A program made the position numbers and the translations under genes. Below the pieces are notes generated by a model, which saw only the letters and a program-made list of their open reading frames with translations, ran no database searches and was not told where the DNA came from. From positions 1-64,000 of the forward strand of contig CACLWE010000002.1 of NCBI GenBank assembly GCA_902610585.1: DNA of 64,000 nt, given 5' to 3'. Shown in pieces: positions 11,506 through 63,637 of this stretch (position 1 is its first letter; each line of letters begins with the position of its first letter). This DNA is from an uncultured Pelagibacteraceae bacterium (GTDB lineage: Bacteria > Pseudomonadota > Alphaproteobacteria > Pelagibacterales > AG-422-B15).

Positions 11506-12520
11506 AGATTTTCAATTAGAAAAAATAATTAGAGAAAACAAAAATTTCATTAGCATTCTTATTTATGGTCCGAATGATGGTCTTGTTAGAGAATACATTG
11601 AAAAGATTACACTTAACTATTTATCCAAAGATGAATATGAGGAGATAAGGTTTAACGGTAAGGAGCTAGATAATGATCCACAAAGTCTTAATGACATAAT
11701 ACAAACCGTCTCAATGTTCTATACGAGTAAAATTGTTATTACAGATAATATCAATGATAAACATATAAAGATAATTGAGAATATTGTAATGAGTGAACCA
11801 CAACAAGTTATTTTAATCTTAAAAGATGGCAATTTAAATAAATCCTCGAAAATAAGAAAGTTTTTTGAAACTGAAAAAAAATGCCTTTCACTGGCATGTT
11901 ATGAGGACGATGGTCGATCAATAATGCGAAATATCGATGAATTTATAAAAAGCAGCGATATTAAACTAAACAAAGATATAAAAAATTACCTATTACAAAC
12001 ACTAAGCAATGATCGAATGGTGAGCAAAAATGAGCTCGAAAAGATTGCGATATTTTATAAGGACTCCAAAAATAAAACTGAACTAGAAAATATTAAGAAT
12101 TTGCTAAATGACTCTAGTTCGCAAAATATGAATAAAATGAATGAGAGTGTAATGTTTGGAAATACATCTAAAAGTGCCAAGATAATGAACAAACTATTGT
12201 CAGAAGGAGCCAACCCAATTAGCCTTATAAGAAGCCTGACAAATTATTTATTGAGAATACAAAAAACAAAGATAGAAATGAAAAAGGGTAATAACTTTGA
12301 CTTATCTATAAAAAGTTTAAAACCACCTGTATTCTGGAAAGATAAAGAAAATTTTCAAAGACATTGTCTAAATTGGCCTCTAAAAAGTATTGAGAAAAAT
12401 CTCTTCGAACTTATGGAAGTAGAGATTTTGTGCAAGTTAAATAGTAAACTTGCTAATTTAAAATGCGAACGATCAATTTTGTTAATTGCGAGTAAAGGTA
12501 AGCAATACTTCAGAAATTAA
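11495..12520 (+). CDS. holA: DNA polymerase III subunit delta
   Basis: HolA is the wrench subunit of the clamp loader that opens the beta clamp. The 341-residue protein shows the family outline: an N-terminal region with ILIYGPNDGLVREYI near residue 22, the central KIVITDNI and QQVILILKDG strands, and a C-terminal helical collar with ANPISLIRSLTNYLLRI. Like other delta subunits it lacks a working Walker motif. The length fits and position after lptE is conserved. Its stop overlaps the convergent parB stop by four bases. Confidence 0.88.
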   Translation: MIIKDFQLEKIIRENKNFISILIYGPNDGLVREYIEKITLNYLSKDEYEEIRFNGKELDNDPQSLNDIIQTVSMFYTSKIVITDNINDKHIKIIENIVMSEPQQVILILKDGNLNKSSKIRKFFETEKKCLSLACYEDDGRSIMRNIDEFIKSSDIKLNKDIKNYLLQTLSNDRMVSKNELEKIAIFYKDSKNKTELENIKNLLNDSSSQNMNKMNESVMFGNTSKSAKIMNKLLSEGANPISLIRSLTNYLLRIQKTKIEMKKGNNFDLSIKSLKPPVFWKDKENFQRHCLNWPLKSIEKNLFELMEVEILCKLNSKLANLKCERSILLIASKGKQYFRN

Positions 12521-13377
12521 TTTTTTAATTTAGCAGTAACCAAGCCTAACTGGTCAAGAGTCTTATATTCAATTTTGATTGATCCGCCTTTTTTTCCCTT
12601 ATGTTCAATCACAACATTTAGCCCAAGCTTTGCTGTTAAATTGTTCTCTAGATCAATGGTGTCAGGGTCTTTTAGTTTTATCTTTTTTATTACAGATTTT
12701 CTTCGTTTTGCCAGTTCTTCTGCAGCTCTTACACTTAAGTTTTCACTTACAATCTTTTCTGCGAGTTGTTCTGGAAAGGCACTATTCATAATAGCTCGAG
12801 CGTGTCCTGATGAAATTTTTCCCTCTGAAATCATATCCTGGATTGACTGAGGCAAACCAAGTAATCTAATTATATTTGCAATATGACTTCTGCTTTTACC
12901 AACAATTTCTGCAAGTGCTTCTTGGGTGTGACCGTGGTTTTCAATTAATCTTTTATATCCAGTTGCTTCTTCAATCGGTGATAGATCTGCACGTTGAACA
13001 TTTTCAATAATTGCTATTTCTAAAGCTTCCACATCGTCTAGCTTTCTGATGACTGCAGGAACTTCATGGAGTTGTGCAATTTGAGCTGCTCGCCATCTTC
13101 TCTCACCTGCAATGATTTCATATGTTCCAGACTCTGTTGGTGAAGGTCTAACTAATATGGGTTGTACCAGTCCTTTTGATTTTATTGACTCAGCCAATTC
13201 ATTAATACTGTTTTTATCAAATAGTCTTCTTGGTTGCGATGAGCTTGGCTTAAGGTTTGCAATTGAAATTTTTGTTTCTTGATTTGAAGTTTCAGTTTGA
13301 GTTGAAATATCTTTTGTATCACCCATGAGGGATGAGAGGCCACGGCCTAAACCTTTTTTTGAAATTGATGAACTCAT
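12517..13377 (-). CDS. parB: Chromosome-partitioning protein ParB
   Basis: ParB binds parS near the origin, spreads as a CTP-dependent clamp and loads SMC. The 286 residues begin with KKGLGRGLSSL, the usual ParA-contacting N terminus. The CTP/spreading motif GERRWR is at 91-96, and a helix-turn-helix follows around 150-175 (KSRSHIANIIRLLGL). The C-terminal dimerisation part is short. It follows parA with a one-base overlap. A perfect parS lies 1.4 kb away inside rsmG. Confidence 0.97.
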   Translation of the reverse strand: MSSSISKKGLGRGLSSLMGDTKDISTQTETSNQETKISIANLKPSSSQPRRLFDKNSINELAESIKSKGLVQPILVRPSPTESGTYEIIAGERRWRAAQIAQLHEVPAVIRKLDDVEALEIAIIENVQRADLSPIEEATGYKRLIENHGHTQEALAEIVGKSRSHIANIIRLLGLPQSIQDMISEGKISSGHARAIMNSAFPEQLAEKIVSENLSVRAAEELAKRRKSVIKKIKLKDPDTIDLENNLTAKLGLNVVIEHKGKKGGSIKIEYKTLDQLGLVTAKLKN

Positions 13378-14165
13378 TAAGCAGCCTCCTGTTCTTTATT
13401 TTGTCTTATGATCTCGTCTGCTAATCTTAAATATGCCTGACTGCCTGCAGCTTTTTGATCATAGATTAGAGCTGGCATTCCAAATGATGGCGCTTCTGAA
13501 ACTCTTACGTTGCGAGGTATGATTGTTTCATATACTTGCTGACTTAAATGTTTTTTAACATCATCAGCAACTTGTGATGAAAGTTTATTTCTTCCATCAA
13601 ACATTGTTAAAACTATACCATCTATTGACAGACCTTGATTAAGATTTTGTTTTACTCTATCAATTGTTTTTATTAATTGACTAAGACCCTCTAATGCAAA
13701 AAATTCACATTGGAGTGGAACGATAATTGAGTCCGCTGCAGTCATTGCCATAACAGTAAGAAGGCTTAAAGCTGGCGGGCAATCTATAAAAACAAAACTA
13801 AAATCATTTAATGAATTTTGATCCGTTAAAATTTTTTTAAGAGTAAAAGCTCTATCTTTTACTTCTGCTAGCTCGGGTTCAATTCCTGATAGATCCACAG
13901 TAGATGGAATAATTTTTAAATTTTCTATTTCTGTATTTTGAATTGCGTCAAATAAATTGCATTGTGATGCAAGAACTTCATAAATTGAGTTGTTTCTGTT
14001 TTGATAATCTATACCTAGACCCGTACTTGCATTTCCTTGAGGATCGAGATCTATAATTAAAACTTTTTCCCCAATTGCAGCTAAGGCTGTGGATAAATTT
14101 ATTGCAGTTGTAGTTTTTCCCACTCCACCTTTCTGATTTGAAATAGCTATTATTTTACTTTTCAT
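13377..14165 (-). CDS. parA: Chromosome-partitioning ATPase ParA (Soj)
   Basis: A 262-residue P-loop ATPase with the deviant Walker motif KGGVGKTT at residues 12-19, the LIIDLDPQGNASTGLG segment and FVFIDCPPALSLL. ATP-bound ParA coats the nucleoid and ParB-parS complexes follow its gradient, which separates newly copied origins. It begins one base into the end of rsmG and ends one base into parB, the compact rsmG-parA-parB block typical of origin-proximal DNA. Confidence 0.97.
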   Translation of the reverse strand: MKSKIIAISNQKGGVGKTTTAINLSTALAAIGEKVLIIDLDPQGNASTGLGIDYQNRNNSIYEVLASQCNLFDAIQNTEIENLKIIPSTVDLSGIEPELAEVKDRAFTLKKILTDQNSLNDFSFVFIDCPPALSLLTVMAMTAADSIIVPLQCEFFALEGLSQLIKTIDRVKQNLNQGLSIDGIVLTMFDGRNKLSSQVADDVKKHLSQQVYETIIPRNVRVSEAPSFGMPALIYDQKAAGSQAYLRLADEIIRQNKEQEAA

Positions 14166-14788
14166 TAACTTATTGATTTTATTATATTTTTTAATTCTAA
14201 AATATACGAACCTTTTTCTCTTTCATTTTTATGCAAAACATGAGTAAAATTCCAACATTTAGTAGCTTGCACGAGCTCTTCATCTATATGTACACCTTTA
14301 TGCAGAAGCAATGTAGTGTTTTTTTTACATAAATTGTAACTAATTGATAATAAATGGTTTAATTGGCTGACAGCTCTCGCTAAAATGATATCAAATTTTC
14401 TATTTTCAATTTTTTCCGCTTTAACGGGAATCACTTCAGTATTTTTAAGATCCAAGTTAACAATGCACTTTTCGAGAAATAATGTTCTTTTAGATCTATT
14501 TTCACATAAAAAAACCCTATTTTTTGAGCTAAATAATAATGAAATTGGTATACCTGGAAGGCCAGCGCCGCTGCCAATATCAATGATATCATTTCCGTTG
14601 CTAGTTATAAACTGAGCCAATCTTAAAGAATCATAGAAATGTCTTGTCCAGATAATGTTTTTATCATTCTTTGATATTAAGTTTTGGTCCTCTGCTAAAA
14701 TCATTTCCCTGAATTCAGACAATTTTTCAATTGTTTCACGTGAAACATTTGGCAAGAGCTCTTTTAGAGCATCAGGCGAATCAATCAT
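14165..14788 (-). CDS. rsmG: 16S rRNA (guanine-527-N7) methyltransferase RsmG (GidB)
   Basis: A 207-residue SAM-dependent methyltransferase with the glycine-rich loop DIGSGAGLPGIPISLLF and the later ARAVSQLNHLL segment typical of RsmG. It modifies G527 of 16S rRNA, a position linked to streptomycin sensitivity. Codons 14-19 (NVSRET) overlap a perfect parS site, so the gene doubles as the centromere. It is placed between mnmG (10 bases upstream) and parA (one-base overlap), the conserved order. Confidence 0.95.
   Translation of the reverse strand: MIDSPDALKELLPNVSRETIEKLSEFREMILAEDQNLISKNDKNIIWTRHFYDSLRLAQFITSNGNDIIDIGSGAGLPGIPISLLFSSKNRVFLCENRSKRTLFLEKCIVNLDLKNTEVIPVKAEKIENRKFDIILARAVSQLNHLLSISYNLCKKNTTLLLHKGVHIDEELVQATKCWNFTHVLHKNEREKGSYILELKNIIKSIS
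14732..14747. other. parS: parS centromere site
   Basis: TGTTTCACGTGAAACA is a perfect 16-base palindrome identical to the widely conserved bacterial parS consensus recognised by ParB. It is embedded in the 5' part of rsmG, 1.4 kb from parB. I found no second perfect copy by reading the window. Confidence 0.93.
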
Positions 14789-18358: not shown

Positions 18359-18814
18359 ATGAGCAGCTACGTTTTCAAATCAATCATTGGCAATATTGAG
18401 CTTGTCTCAAGCAAAAATAGAATAATTGCAGTTCATAGAACAAGGAAAAAGCCCAATAAAACAGAGGATAAGCTTCTAAAAAGATCTGCGCTTCAAGTTA
18501 AAATGTATCTTGCGCGCAAAAGGCAATCCCTTAATTTTCCAACAAGACAAATGGGCACAAGATTTCAAAACCGTGTTTGGAATTATTTACAAAGGATACC
18601 TTATGGTAGAACAACAACTTACGGCGATATTGCGAAGAAATTAAGAACATCGCCTCGAGCTGTTGGGGGCGCCTTAGGAAAAAATAATCTTATGATGACA
18701 GTTCCATGTCATAGAGTAGTTGGGAGTGACGGCAAACTCACAGGATTTACATCAGTGGGTGGATTAAGTACCAAAAGAAATTTACTGAACATTGAACAAA
18801 AAACTAAAAAATAA
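18359..18814 (+). CDS. ogt: Methylated-DNA--protein-cysteine methyltransferase
   Basis: A suicide DNA-repair protein that removes O6-alkyl groups from guanine onto its own cysteine. The 151 residues carry the active-site signature MTVPCHRVVGSDGKLTGF and the helix-turn-helix region YGRTTTYGDIAKKL with RAVGGALGKN. The N-terminal domain is reduced compared with Ogt of enteric bacteria. It is the first gene of a two-gene rightward unit with apt, inserted among leftward genes; the two coding regions overlap by 23 bases. Confidence 0.9.
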   Translation: MSSYVFKSIIGNIELVSSKNRIIAVHRTRKKPNKTEDKLLKRSALQVKMYLARKRQSLNFPTRQMGTRFQNRVWNYLQRIPYGRTTTYGDIAKKLRTSPRAVGGALGKNNLMMTVPCHRVVGSDGKLTGFTSVGGLSTKRNLLNIEQKTKK

Positions 18815-19331
18815 ACTCAAAAAGAAAATTAGAGTAATTCCTAATTTCCCAAAAAAGGGTATTCAGTTTCAAGACATAACTTCAATCACAGACAGTAAGC
18901 CGCTTTTTACCGAAGTTGTTAATGAAATTTCTAAATATTGTAAAAAAAATAAATTTACTAAAGTAGCTGGTATAGAGGCGAGAGGCTTCATCTTTGGATC
19001 AGCTGTTGCCTACAAGCTTGGCTTACCTTTTATTCCAATAAGAAAAAAAGGGAAACTTCCAGGAAAAATAGTCAAACAAACATACAAGCTAGAGTATGGA
19101 ATGGATGAAATCCAGGTACACAAACATTCTATCACTTCCAAAGATAAAGTTTTGATTGTCGATGACTTAATTGCAACCGGCGGAACAGCTAACGCGGCCG
19201 CAAAGCTAATTTCAAAGCTTGGGGTAAAGAAAATTGAATTTTTTATGATAATTGATTTATGGAACCTTAAAGGCTCAAAGAAGATTTCTAAAAAATATCA
19301 GATAAGGTCGTTGATGGAGGCGGAAGGATAA
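18792..19331 (+). CDS. apt: Adenine phosphoribosyltransferase
   Basis: Converts adenine and PRPP to AMP (purine salvage). The PRPP-binding motif VLIVDDLIATGGTANAA is clear, as are IPNFPKKGIQFQDIT at the N terminus and the GIEARGFIFGSAVAYKLG loop. The start is a TTG at 18792 inside the end of ogt; no in-frame ATG exists before the conserved IPNFP segment, so a TTG start is the best choice and suggests coupling to ogt translation. The 179-residue length is normal. It ends one base before the convergent rho stop. Confidence 0.93.
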   Translation: MNKKLKNKLKKKIRVIPNFPKKGIQFQDITSITDSKPLFTEVVNEISKYCKKNKFTKVAGIEARGFIFGSAVAYKLGLPFIPIRKKGKLPGKIVKQTYKLEYGMDEIQVHKHSITSKDKVLIVDDLIATGGTANAAAKLISKLGVKKIEFFMIIDLWNLKGSKKISKKYQIRSLMEAEG

Positions 19332-21119: not shown

Positions 21120-22135
21120 CTTAATTCTTGATCACATTGTTTAAACGTTGCTGGACATATCTTTTGCCTGATATTCCCGCTCTCAACTTTCTCTGACTCG
21201 CTGACTATTTCAGATAAGCTTTCTATAAATGTTTGATCAATATTTAAAGACTCAGATCTATAATAATGCTTACAACCTAGTTCGCTTGCAAGTTCTTGGT
21301 ACTCAATATCTAATTCAACAAGTGTTTCAGAGTGATCCGAGACAAACGCAATTGGAACGATAACCAGCGCCCTGTCTTCGCTAATTGCATTTTCAATTTC
21401 ACTTGGTGTTGTTGGTTCAAGCCATTTAACTGGGGTAACTTTACTTTGGTAAGCCAAAACATGATCTTCATAACCATGAATGCCCTGCATGACCGCCTTT
21501 ACTGTTTGTTCCACTTGCCACTGATATGGATCACCTTTTTTAATTATTGATACAGGTAAACTGTGAGCGGAAAACAGAACTCTTACTTTTTTATCTTTAA
21601 TGTGGTTTATTTTATCTTGGATCAGTTTCTGATGGGCTTTGATTAATTTTGCGTCATATGGATAACAACAGGTGTATTTTGTTTTTGCATTTAATTCCTG
21701 GTTTTGTGCTTCGTTGAACCATGCATCCAGAGAAGATTTTGTTGTTGTTGTGGAGTATTGTGGATACAGGGGCAGTAAAAATATTTTGTCTGGGTTATAG
21801 TCTTTGACTTTTGAAACTACCTCAGCTGTCATTGGATGCCAATATCTCATGCAAACAAATACTTTGTTCTCGATGCCTTTGTTTTCTAACTCTTTCTGAA
21901 GGGCCTCTGCTTGGGAGTTTGTAATGTCAAGAATAGGTGATTTACCGCCTATTTCGGCATAAATTTCAGTGGCCTCTTTGGTACGACGGGAGGATATAAG
22001 TCTTGCCAATAAATACCTGAGGGGATTTGGAAGTCTAAATATGTTGGGATCATTAAACAGATTAAATAAAAAAGGTTTTACGCTTTCTTGTTTGTCTGGT
22101 CCACCCAAGTTAAATAAAACAACCGCTGTTTTCAT
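21116..22135 (-). CDS. hemH: Ferrochelatase
   Basis: Inserts ferrous iron into protoporphyrin IX, the last haem step. The 339-residue sequence begins VVLFNLGGPDKQESVKPFLFNLF. It contains the active-site histidine in FSAHSLPVSIIKKGDPYQ and the glutamate region FVSDHSETLVELDIEY. Cysteines near the C terminus (ICPATFKQCD) resemble those that hold a 2Fe-2S cluster in some ferrochelatases, but this is not proven. It overlaps hemE and hemJ by four bases each. Confidence 0.95.
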   Translation of the reverse strand: MKTAVVLFNLGGPDKQESVKPFLFNLFNDPNIFRLPNPLRYLLARLISSRRTKEATEIYAEIGGKSPILDITNSQAEALQKELENKGIENKVFVCMRYWHPMTAEVVSKVKDYNPDKIFLLPLYPQYSTTTTKSSLDAWFNEAQNQELNAKTKYTCCYPYDAKLIKAHQKLIQDKINHIKDKKVRVLFSAHSLPVSIIKKGDPYQWQVEQTVKAVMQGIHGYEDHVLAYQSKVTPVKWLEPTTPSEIENAISEDRALVIVPIAFVSDHSETLVELDIEYQELASELGCKHYYRSESLNIDQTFIESLSEIVSESEKVESGNIRQKICPATFKQCDQELR

Positions 22136-23118
22136 GTTGACCTTATCTGTAAGAGCATTTGCTCAACCTTCTCAATTGATGTCTCGGGTAAAACCCCGTG
22201 TCCTAAATTAAAAATATGTGGTCTTTCTTTAAAAGCAAACAATATTTCTTCAATTTTCTGACTAAGATTTAGGGAGTCTTTTAATAGGTGTTTAGGATCC
22301 AGGTTTCCTTGAAAAACAATTTTATCGTTTAGCTCATTAATTTTATCTAAAGGAAAATTATAGTCTAAAGTAATACAGTCAAGCTTATCTATATTTGAAT
22401 ATTTTTTATAGCATGCAAGGTTAGTGTTTCTAGGAAAGCCAATAATAGGAATGTCTTTTATTTTTTTTATACTCTCAATAATTTTTTTTGTAGGTTGAAT
22501 ACACCATTTGTTGAACTGTTCGTCATTCAAGTGTTCTGCCGCTGATTCAAATATTTGAAAAGCATCAATCCCATAATTAATTTGCATTTCTGCATGTTGA
22601 ATAATCGCAAGTGTCATTTGTTCGATTAAATTGTCTATTTGCGAAGTCTTTTTTATAACATCTTCGGATTTTAGTTTTTGGCGTTCATTCTTTTCATATA
22701 AACAATAAAACAGGGTCGTCCATGCTCCACCAGCAAATCCTATTAAGGGGACATCTGTATTTTCTTTAATTTTTTTTATTCCTGTTGCAAGGGGTAGGGT
22801 TTTTTCAGGGTTGTAATCTATATTTTCATTAAACTTTATTATTGGACCTTGCCCTTCGATAAAATTAACAGTTGATCCTGCAGCAAGGGGGGTTATAAGA
22901 ATATCTGAAAATACAATACAGGCGTCCATACCATATCTTTTTACAGGCTGCATTGACACTTCAAGTATTGTCAAAGGGTCTAGAAACATATCCATTAAGT
23001 CCCCAAATCTTTTTCTTATGGCCATGTACTCAGGCAAATGTCTTCCCGCTTGCCTCATTAACCAAACTGGTGTTGGGTTCGTTTTCTTTCCTTTAAGTGT
23101 ATCTATAAATATACTCAT
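22132..23118 (-). CDS. hemE: Uroporphyrinogen decarboxylase
   Basis: Removes four carboxyl groups from uroporphyrinogen III. The opening PVWLMRQAGRHLPEYMAIR is the family signature, YGMDACIVFSDI supplies the catalytic aspartate, and NLGHGVLP marks the C-terminal end. The frame is open for 60 more codons upstream, but that extension is non-homologous and is read from the origin candidate. The ATG at 23116-23118 (MSIFIDTLKG, 328 residues) is the right start. It is the first leftward gene from the proposed origin. Confidence 0.95.
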   Translation of the reverse strand: MSIFIDTLKGKKTNPTPVWLMRQAGRHLPEYMAIRKRFGDLMDMFLDPLTILEVSMQPVKRYGMDACIVFSDILITPLAAGSTVNFIEGQGPIIKFNENIDYNPEKTLPLATGIKKIKENTDVPLIGFAGGAWTTLFYCLYEKNERQKLKSEDVIKKTSQIDNLIEQMTLAIIQHAEMQINYGIDAFQIFESAAEHLNDEQFNKWCIQPTKKIIESIKKIKDIPIIGFPRNTNLACYKKYSNIDKLDCITLDYNFPLDKINELNDKIVFQGNLDPKHLLKDSLNLSQKIEEILFAFKERPHIFNLGHGVLPETSIEKVEQMLLQIRST

Positions 23119-23392
23119 TATATTATATATATAATTGTAGTTGTTTATGTTCCTGTGGAATTGTGTATATATAAAAAGTCGCTTTTTGCCCACAATTCGA
23201 TACACAGAACAATCGCTTTGAATTATAAGCTTTTTAACCTTATACACCGCCGTGGAAGAAAAAACACTGCATCTATAACAGGTGAACAAAGTTTGCAAAA
23301 ATTCTCAATAAAGATAGAAAAATAAGTTAAAAACTACAAATGAGCAAAGTTAGTAAAAGTACTCACACGCCTTAGGAGGTTTATACAGGTTT
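23119..23392. other. oriC: Candidate chromosome replication origin (oriC)
   Basis: This 274-base gap between divergent hemE and maf has no credible gene. It contains four sites resembling the DnaA box TTATNCACA: 23162-23170 (minus strand ATATACACA, 8/9), 23198-23206 (CGATACACA, 7/9), 23240-23248 (TTATACACC, 8/9) and 23381-23389 (TTATACAGG, 7/9). An A/T-only stretch lies at 23117-23135, and there is a dyad at 23158-23198. The hemE-side location and flanking genes (rho-mnmEG-rsmG-parAB left, maf-aroE-coaE-dnaQ right) match the known Caulobacter origin neighbourhood. Genes are mostly transcribed away from this point. Function is inferred. Confidence 0.65.
23158..23198. repeat. Two-tier dyad in the origin candidate
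   Basis: GAATTGTG (23158-23165) pairs with CACAATTC (23191-23198). Inside it AAAAAG (23173-23178) pairs with CTTTTT (23182-23187) around a TCG loop. The internal loops are seven and three bases. The left arm overlaps a DnaA-box-like site. It could be a cruciform, a protein-binding dyad, or a hairpin in a leader RNA. Confidence 0.6.
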
Positions 23393-23998
23393 ATGAACAG
23401 AGATATAATTTTGGCATCTAAAAGCGAAACAAGGATTAAATTGTTACGTAACGCCGGTATAACCTTTGAGTCCGTTGCTCATGGTATAGATGAGGATGAA
23501 GTAAAGCTGTCGATGAGTAAAAATACACCCGAAGAGGTCGTGATTAAACTTGCCGAGATGAAGGCCTTGAAGCCCTCCATGTCTAATAAAAGTGCATTTG
23601 TTATTGGATCAGACCAAGGTTTGGATCTGAAAGGCGAATTGATTAACAAGGCTCTGGATAGAAGTGAAGCAAAAGAACAGTTGATTAAAATGAGCGGATC
23701 TATCCACACACTTATAACCGCCACAACAGTCGCTCAAGATAGTAATATTATTTGGAAGTATGTGGACAGATCCAAAATGCATATGCGAAAGTTGAGTGAG
23801 GACCTGATAAAAGAGTATTTAAATAAAGTCGACGATAATGTTCTTGATCTTGTGGGCGTCTATGCAATTGAGGAAGAAGGAATTAAACTTTTTGAAAATA
23901 TTGGGAGTGACCTTTTTTCAATACAAGGCATATCATTAATTCAATTAACCCAGTTCCTTTGGGACAACAATCTTCTATTTGAAAACAATGTCACATAA
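23393..23998 (+). CDS. maf: Maf family nucleotide pyrophosphatase
   Basis: Maf proteins hydrolyse dTTP/UTP or modified nucleotides to monophosphates and are linked to septation control. The 201-residue sequence opens with ILASKSETRIKLLRNAGI, contains the catalytic-aspartate region VIGSDQGLDLKGE and the LDLVGVYAIEEEG end. The DQ form at the active site may place it in the YceF-like (m7GTP) group, which I did not resolve. An unusually good ribosome-binding sequence, TTAGGAGG, sits at 23372-23379, 13 bases before the ATG. It is the first rightward gene from the origin candidate. Confidence 0.92.
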   Translation: MNRDIILASKSETRIKLLRNAGITFESVAHGIDEDEVKLSMSKNTPEEVVIKLAEMKALKPSMSNKSAFVIGSDQGLDLKGELINKALDRSEAKEQLIKMSGSIHTLITATTVAQDSNIIWKYVDRSKMHMRKLSEDLIKEYLNKVDDNVLDLVGVYAIEEEGIKLFENIGSDLFSIQGISLIQLTQFLWDNNLLFENNVT

Positions 23999-62623: not shown

Positions 62624-63637
62624 TTGAAAAATAAATTAATCAATAACACTCACAAAAAAAATTCCGTACAAGGTTTACATTCAGCAGTAATACAAATAGA
62701 AAACTCGGATACGTTAGACATATTTGGTGTGAATAACGAAAACATAGATTTTTTTGAAAAAAATTTGCCATTAAAAATATATCAAAAAGGCAATCAACTA
62801 ACTATTCAAGGAAATAAAAAAAATATTGACATTCTGAGAAGTTCGATAAGTAAAACAATAAGCGAAAAAAAGATGAAAAAAAAAGTTGATAAAAATACTA
62901 ACTTAATGCAAGAGAATTTAAAAATGTATATATCAAATGATGTTAGAAATATAAATATTACAAAAACTGTTAAATTAGATGTTATTGGTAAAAGTAAATT
63001 ACAAAATACCTATTTAGAAATATTGCAAAAGAAACAAATAGTATTTGCGGTCGGACCAGCAGGAACTGGAAAAACTTTCCTTGCTGTTGCTGCGGCAGTT
63101 TCTCAACTATTAGAAAAAAAGTTCGATCGCATTATTTTATCTAGACCAGCAGTTGAGGCTGGTGAAAAGTTAGGGTTTTTACCGGGTGATCTAAAAGAAA
63201 AAGTTGATCCATACTTGAGACCGCTTTATGACTCTTTGTATGATTTAGTGCCTTCTGATATTGCGTTAAGAAAAATTCAATCATCTGAAATTGAAATTGC
63301 TCCGTTAGCATTTATGAGAGGAAGGACACTCAATAATTCTTTCGTCATACTAGATGAAGCTCAGAATGCAACGCATAATCAAATTAAGATGTTTTTAACT
63401 AGATGCGGTAAGAACTCAAGAATGGTAGTAACTGGCGATCCTTCACAAACAGATCTAAATAGACGAAGTGATTCTGGCTTACTTAGATCAATCAAAATCT
63501 TAGCAGACATTAAAGGTGTCTCAGTTATTAATTTCGGGCAGAAGGATATTGTTCGAGATGAAATGGTTACAAAAATTATAAACGCCTACGACTCTTACGA
63601 TAATCAAATTAAGGATCTATTCGATCAAAAAAAATAA
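62624..63637 (+). CDS. PhoH family P-loop ATPase (PhoH/YbeZ)
   Basis: A 337-residue PhoH-like protein. An N-terminal KH-like region precedes the Walker A motif GPAGTGKT at 144-151; RPAVEAGEKLGFLPGDLKEKVDPYLRPLYDSL and FVILDEAQNATHNQIKMFLTR are hallmarks of the family. YbeZ partners with YbeY in rRNA processing, and ybeY follows here. The start is a TTG at 62624; no in-frame ATG is closer to the homologous region. Confidence 0.95.
   Translation: MKNKLINNTHKKNSVQGLHSAVIQIENSDTLDIFGVNNENIDFFEKNLPLKIYQKGNQLTIQGNKKNIDILRSSISKTISEKKMKKKVDKNTNLMQENLKMYISNDVRNINITKTVKLDVIGKSKLQNTYLEILQKKQIVFAVGPAGTGKTFLAVAAAVSQLLEKKFDRIILSRPAVEAGEKLGFLPGDLKEKVDPYLRPLYDSLYDLVPSDIALRKIQSSEIEIAPLAFMRGRTLNNSFVILDEAQNATHNQIKMFLTRCGKNSRMVVTGDPSQTDLNRRSDSGLLRSIKILADIKGVSVINFGQKDIVRDEMVTKIINAYDSYDNQIKDLFDQKK

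Follow-up and report, generated by a model that had tools for sequence, protein, structure and literature searches.

Is the short gene-free stretch between hemE and maf the replication origin of this chromosome, as the earlier note had inferred for a streamlined AT-rich alphaproteobacterium? The window analysed here covers the initial 64 kb of contig C2 (133 kb), in a genome of 1.21 Mb that is 77% complete, and the bacterium is indeed a streamlined AT-rich one, belonging to SAR11 (Pelagibacterales). The relatives compared are classed as Pelagibacteraceae or Pelagibacterales and include many single-cell genomes; one relative, G041 (1,308,759 bases, same order, other family), we take to be Candidatus Pelagibacter ubique HTCC1062. 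The gap is very probably the oriC of the SAR11 chromosome, of the hemE-type known in alphaproteobacteria and opened by DnaA. This reading is preferred because several lines agree, namely the box enrichment, the constant length with excess conservation, the single parS, the skew plateau and the hemE/COG1806 synteny, and they lend support to the inference in the earlier note. The hemE/COG1806 synteny defines such alphaproteobacterial origins in the literature (PMC1914354).

Extent and coding status of the gap

The gene starts (23118 on the minus strand for hemE and 23393 on the plus strand for maf) confirm a gene-free gap of 274 bp at 23119..23392, the length given in the earlier note. The boundary genes and the main elements are as follows.

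22132 to 23118, minus strand: hemE, left boundary gene (TIGR01464, 2e-88; bit score just under the curated cut-off)
23100 to 23140, unstranded: candidate DNA-unwinding element, an A/T patch at the hemE start (from nearest-neighbour energies; TATATA at 23126-23131 is invariant)
23119 to 23392, unstranded: non-coding hemE-maf gap of 274 bp, very probable oriC (from length, conservation, box enrichment and no Rfam match)
23393 to 23998, plus strand: maf, right boundary gene (TIGR00172, 1.3e-33, just under the curated cut-off)

The hemE frame extends upstream as a TTG-start ORF, up to 23298. The congeneric set consists of two subgroups, between which the hemE proteins are 56-59% identical, and the open hemE frame is just 336-348 aa in several congeners and in nearly all members of the sister subgroup. 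Also no conserved ORF was found in the gap, the longest in-gap frames varying in strand and length among relatives, and the gap is therefore read as non-coding. A small RNA or small protein encoded here would account for the high conservation of the gap, but the Rfam search of the gap returned no match up to E = 1 and the variation of the in-gap frames speaks against a protein, so that the chance of either being the reason for the conservation is close to negligible.

The gap as a whole is only slightly richer in A+T than average (69% vs 67%). The A/T-only patch pointed out earlier beside hemE is present, and among all 40-bp segments of the 64-kb window only one is less stable, by nearest-neighbour energies, than that starting at 23100. 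From left to right, the layout consists of the A/T patch, GTTTATG, CCTGTGGAATTGTGTATATATAA (with two overlapping DnaA-like sites on the minus strand), TTGCCCACA and more plus-strand sites up to 23389.

Enrichment of DnaA boxes

Every gap of at least 100 bp was scored for DnaA boxes against its own dinucleotide shuffles and the gaps were ranked by z, the scored consensus being TTATNCACA with 0, 1 or 2 mismatches. The gap beside hemE ranked first in the own contig (z = 4.06, 24 gaps), in the congeners G059 (z = 4.98, 125 gaps in 652 kb) and G014 (z = 4.35, 69 gaps in 376 kb) and in HTCC1062 (z = 3.75, 213 gaps in 1.19 Mb), so that no better cluster by z was found in any other gap of the four assemblies, although these first ranks are not independent, three of the four genomes being congeners; HTCC1062, however, comes from another family. 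Three gaps of HTCC1062 exceed its hemE gap in raw box count because they are much longer. The mean box z in 18 gaps of Pelagibacteraceae and G019 is 3.1. A perfect box at 62728 in the window was considered as a rival site and rejected, its 'gap' arising mostly because ORFs were called from ATG only (a PhoH-like frame with a TTG start runs from 62624).

DnaA boxes and other elements within the gap

The following elements were located in the window's gap and compared with the two subgroups.

23143 to 23149, unstranded: invariant GTTTATG, between the A/T patch and the first boxes (identical in 36 of 36 gap sequences)
23154 to 23162, minus strand: possible low-affinity DnaA site AATTCCACA, read from the sequence (weak, 3 mismatches to TTATNCACA; positioned like the E. 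coli R1 box beside the unwinding region)
23158 to 23198, unstranded: dyad GAATTGTG (23158-23165) / CACAATTC (23191-23198), read from the sequence
23162 to 23170, minus strand: DnaA box ATATACACA, core of the invariant TGTGTATATATA (1 mismatch to TTATNCACA, as in every sequence of both subgroups)
23186 to 23194, plus strand: DnaA-like box TTGCCCACA (2 mismatches; TTGCCCACAA invariant in 36 sequences)
23198 to 23206, plus strand: DnaA-like box CGATACACA (2 mismatches; retained in the own subgroup, degenerate among sister-subgroup sequences)
23240 to 23248, plus strand: DnaA box TTATACACC (1 mismatch; TTACCCACA or similar in the sister subgroup; about 1 mismatch in both subgroups)
23272 to 23280, plus strand: no box in the window; place of a perfect TTATCCACA in most sister-subgroup sequences (mean mismatch 0.29 in subgroup 2 and 3.9 in subgroup 1)
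23359 to 23367, plus strand: DnaA-like box GTACTCACA (2 mismatches; ATATCCACA with 1 mismatch in the sister subgroup)
23381 to 23389, plus strand: DnaA-like box TTATACAGG (2 mismatches; own subgroup only)

The four DnaA-box-like sites listed in the earlier note (23162-23170 minus, 23198-23206, 23240-23248 and 23381-23389) are all present as described, but the list was incomplete in that the conserved TTGCCCACA (23186), GTACTCACA (23359) and position 23272 were missed. The dyad described there was also found, intact in the window's subgroup only. The window's own gap has no perfect TTATNCACA and just two clear one-mismatch sites; a third one-mismatch site overlaps the maf start codon and for this reason its conservation is uninformative.

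At E. coli R1, a TGTGG-type box adjoins an unwinding region. BUS, with a DnaA box, a spacer and DnaA-trios, is laid out in the same way (PMC8287927). By the rules published there (at least 3 NAN trios at most 16 bp from a DnaA box), no DnaA-trio or BUS match was found in the window's gap, and the same search in relatives gave scattered matches. The sister subgroup has a TAGTATTAG run, ten bases and then TGTGATG, and in Pelagibacteraceae the equivalent place often has TAGTATTAGTATTAT separated by a short spacer from TGTGAATAA, with TAG/TAT trinucleotide runs in several. The p values of the trio runs against shuffles are mostly 0.05-0.3 in single sequences and not significant in most. As single-sequence shuffles often reach them, the trio-like runs beside a box in the sister subgroup and Pelagibacteraceae are taken as suggestive only of a possible BUS-like layout.

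Conservation among relatives

In 36 distinct sequences of the genus the gap measures 271-277 bp, and 271-275 bp within the window's subgroup. Gap sequences are 91% identical inside each subgroup and 55% identical across the two, whereas the four-fold degenerate sites of seven neighbouring genes are 67-80% identical in the window's subgroup, 59-77% in the sister subgroup and 30-45% between the two; the gap is thus more conserved than such sites of the flanking genes. Runs invariant in the 36 sequences are TATATA (23126), GTTTATG (23143), TGTGTATATATA (23162) and TTGCCCACAA (23186). Boxes that turn over in a frame that stays constant is how an origin under purifying selection would be expected to look. 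Against the gaps of Pelagibacteraceae, the window's gap is hardly alignable except for box-like words. We also raise, as a doubtful possibility, that the oriC of the window's subgroup no longer has any consensus DnaA box or a DnaA-trio but has kept a rigid 271-275-bp frame with the invariant GTTTATG, TGTGTATATATA and TTGCCCACAA, in which case opening may depend on sites of low affinity set at fixed distances, or these blocks may be read by another protein.

The conservation could instead stem from promoters and leaders, if the gap were the divergent promoter region of hemE and maf only and the origin lay elsewhere in the skew plateau. The gap separates divergent genes and must contain their promoters, the invariant TGTGTATATATA could act as a hemE -10 element, and the plateau is not resolved by skew. 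Yet promoter-like sites in a sigma-70-type scan of the gap are no more numerous than in shuffles (the promoter and terminator scan of the gap being uninformative), and promoters do not predict that the gap ranks first for DnaA boxes in four assemblies or keeps its length over deep divergence (hemE down to 56% identity), nor do they predict the parS and hemE/COG1806 context. Also, a promoter and an origin may coexist in one gap. We therefore hold a promoter region alone to be very unlikely and keep to the reading of the gap as oriC.

Partition site and neighbouring genes

On the hemE side of the gap lie the partition genes and their site.

12517 to 13377, minus strand: parB (TIGR00180, 204 bits)
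13377 to 14165, minus strand: parA, adjoining parB (ParA/MinD family matches, all under equivalog cut-offs, hence superfamily only; 54-57% identity to Pelagibacteraceae over most homologous genes)
14732 to 14747, unstranded: parS TGTTTCACGTGAAACA, exact palindromic, inside the rsmG coding sequence beside parAB (only exact site in the genome as assembled; 8.4 kb from the gap)

Exactly one exact parS was found in 45 of the 58 genomes searched, that is, in every genome having any, and a reversed control pattern gave zero sites in the same 58 genomes. Where parS and hemE are on one contig, parS lies 7-19 kb from the hemE start (40 of 40 genomes). A parS near the origin is a general criterion for oriC, and one origin-proximal parS, as found here, is the expected arrangement. 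In 2 of the 40 cases (G040:C1:1107034 and G051:C9:58058) parS is on the opposite (maf) side of the gap, 17-19 kb away, pointing to par genes that would have been rearranged across the origin.

NCBIfam agrees with the gene calls for parB, rsmG, mnmG, mnmE, rho, aroE and dnaQ, and the order hemE, maf, aroE, coaE, dnaQ is preserved in 17 Pelagibacteraceae genomes, both in accord with the hemE neighbourhood that had been proposed. From hemE back to parB the genes run almost all leftward, and maf, aroE, coaE and dnaQ rightward, as had been stated. Two plus-strand genes at 18359-19331 of the window break the leftward block between mnmE and rho and by eye are an O6-alkylguanine-type methyltransferase and an adenine phosphoribosyltransferase.

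The gene for RP001/PpsR, reported earlier as absent so that the gap abuts maf, proved to be missing genus-wide: PpsR/COG1806 (PF03618) was absent in 35 of 35 congeners searched, including one estimated 99% complete. All 22 genomes searched in the other family (Pelagibacteraceae) have it, and there the order is hemE, a gap of about 240-300 bp, PpsR and then maf. On comparison of these gene orders, the simplest reading would be that the PpsR gene was lost in the window's genus and the origin stayed beside hemE.

Two genomes of genus g2 of the same order (G036 and G039, with loci L065 and L068) carry a version of hemE with 26% identity, located far away from the par region. In G036 parS (121.8 kb) and PpsR (140.5 kb) are together and hemE (718 kb) is about half a genome away; in G039 parS (1043 kb) and PpsR (1061 kb) are again together and hemE (412 kb) is about half a genome away. 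The origin of these two genomes may lie beside PpsR, without hemE.

GC skew and the position of dnaA

In HTCC1062 the cumulative GC skew is lowest at 307.6 kb and highest at 996 kb, and the antipode of this maximum is at about 342 kb. The hemE gap (335.5 kb) is on the skew-minimum plateau opposite this maximum, where skew resolves only to tens of kb. In G059 and G014 the plateaus extend over about 345-470 kb and 170-290 kb, with the gap at 423.8 kb and 209 kb, respectively. The distance of the gap to the skew and gene-strand minima is 28-45 kb in HTCC1062 and 36-40 kb in G059 and G014, and the skew minimum of the window's own contig is at 45 kb. Taking the gene-orientation minimum of HTCC1062 (291 kb) gives 66.9% of coding bases leading vs 66.0% for the gap. 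With gene strand removed, the third-codon-position skew of HTCC1062 is described better by a switch at 250 kb than by one at 335 kb and does not localise the origin. Skew supports the region but cannot single out the hemE-maf gap within tens of kb, a limitation also reported for several alphaproteobacteria (PMC1914354).

The distance from the gap to dnaA is 63-66 kb, which puts dnaA close to the right edge of the plateau, and an origin by that gene, about 65 kb to the right, would resemble that of many bacteria outside the alphaproteobacteria. However, the intergenic region preceding dnaA (88016-88342) contains a single one-mismatch box and does not rank with the top gaps, dnaA of HTCC1062 (398.9 kb) is farther than hemE from the skew antipode, and parS is on the hemE side, all of which makes an origin at dnaA extremely unlikely.

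If the gap is oriC, initiation may be pictured by analogy with other bacteria. DnaA, the domain IV of which holds GGRDHTTV and RPRQ, the standard DNA-binding signature, and which is encoded about 65 kb away, would bind the mostly imperfect boxes clustered at 23154-23389 and form an oligomer growing toward hemE, and it would open the A/T patch at 23100-23140. The helicase would load at the opened patch and two forks would depart; ParB on the single parS, 8.4 kb from the gap, would afterwards segregate the newly made origins.

Comparison with known origins

Among the features described for hemE-type origins, the gap has hemE as its boundary, box enrichment (with imperfect boxes in the window), an A/T unwinding element and conservation above its surroundings. 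CtrA (TTAA-N7-TTAA), strict IHF (WATCAN5WTR) and GANTC sites were absent from the gaps of five SAR11 representatives. CtrA sites are not universal at hemE-type origins, some Ehrlichia and Wolbachia being without them (PMC1914354), and Pelagibacter is reported to have no ctrA orthologue (PMC2877005).

Cori of Caulobacter crescentus (hemE / COG1806) is likewise beside hemE and has DnaA boxes and an A/T-rich element (PMC1914354), but the window is without COG1806/PpsR, so that its gap abuts maf, the length is 274 bp vs about 404 bp, and the CtrA, strict IHF and GANTC sites are lacking in the gaps of the SAR11 representatives. Origins of Rickettsia prowazekii and related bacteria (hemE / RP001) share the boundary gene hemE, an A/T-rich genome and a gap of a few hundred bp (PMC1914354), whereas the window is without RP001/COG1806 and its gap has no CtrA sites and is 69% A+T vs about 82% in Rickettsia. 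In Wolbachia (hemE / COG1253) hemE is also retained with the COG1806 side altered (PMC1914354); there, in contrast, the gap ends at a CBS-domain gene after rearrangement, while the window merely is without PpsR, maf, aroE, coaE and dnaQ being still in order. The hemE-PpsR gap of Pelagibacteraceae (HTCC1062) is homologous in position and alike in length (about 240-300 bp), box enrichment and nearby parS, but PpsR is kept, some have perfect boxes and TAG/TAT runs stand beside the TGTGAATAA box, the rest being hardly alignable. The window's gap is, in all likelihood, an ordinary hemE-type origin as in Caulobacter and Rickettsia, minus one flanking gene.

SAR11 bacteria rank with the most abundant cells of the ocean, and no paper giving a SAR11 origin at sequence resolution was found in the literature searched. 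A defined origin with a single parS lets read-depth growth-rate estimates be anchored, a small CtrA-free alphaproteobacterial origin becomes testable, and the 36-sequence alignment reveals the bases under constraint.

GANTC methylation in Pelagibacter follows the ori-to-ter position, where the ori of the study's MAG was placed by a skew script (PMC9516812). Most genomes of the two families have GcrA. In HTCC1062 the gap with the second rank for DnaA boxes (488276-488398) contains a perfect box and is directly upstream of gcrA (487844-488275, minus strand), which suggests that DnaA may control gcrA in this bacterium reported to be without CtrA.
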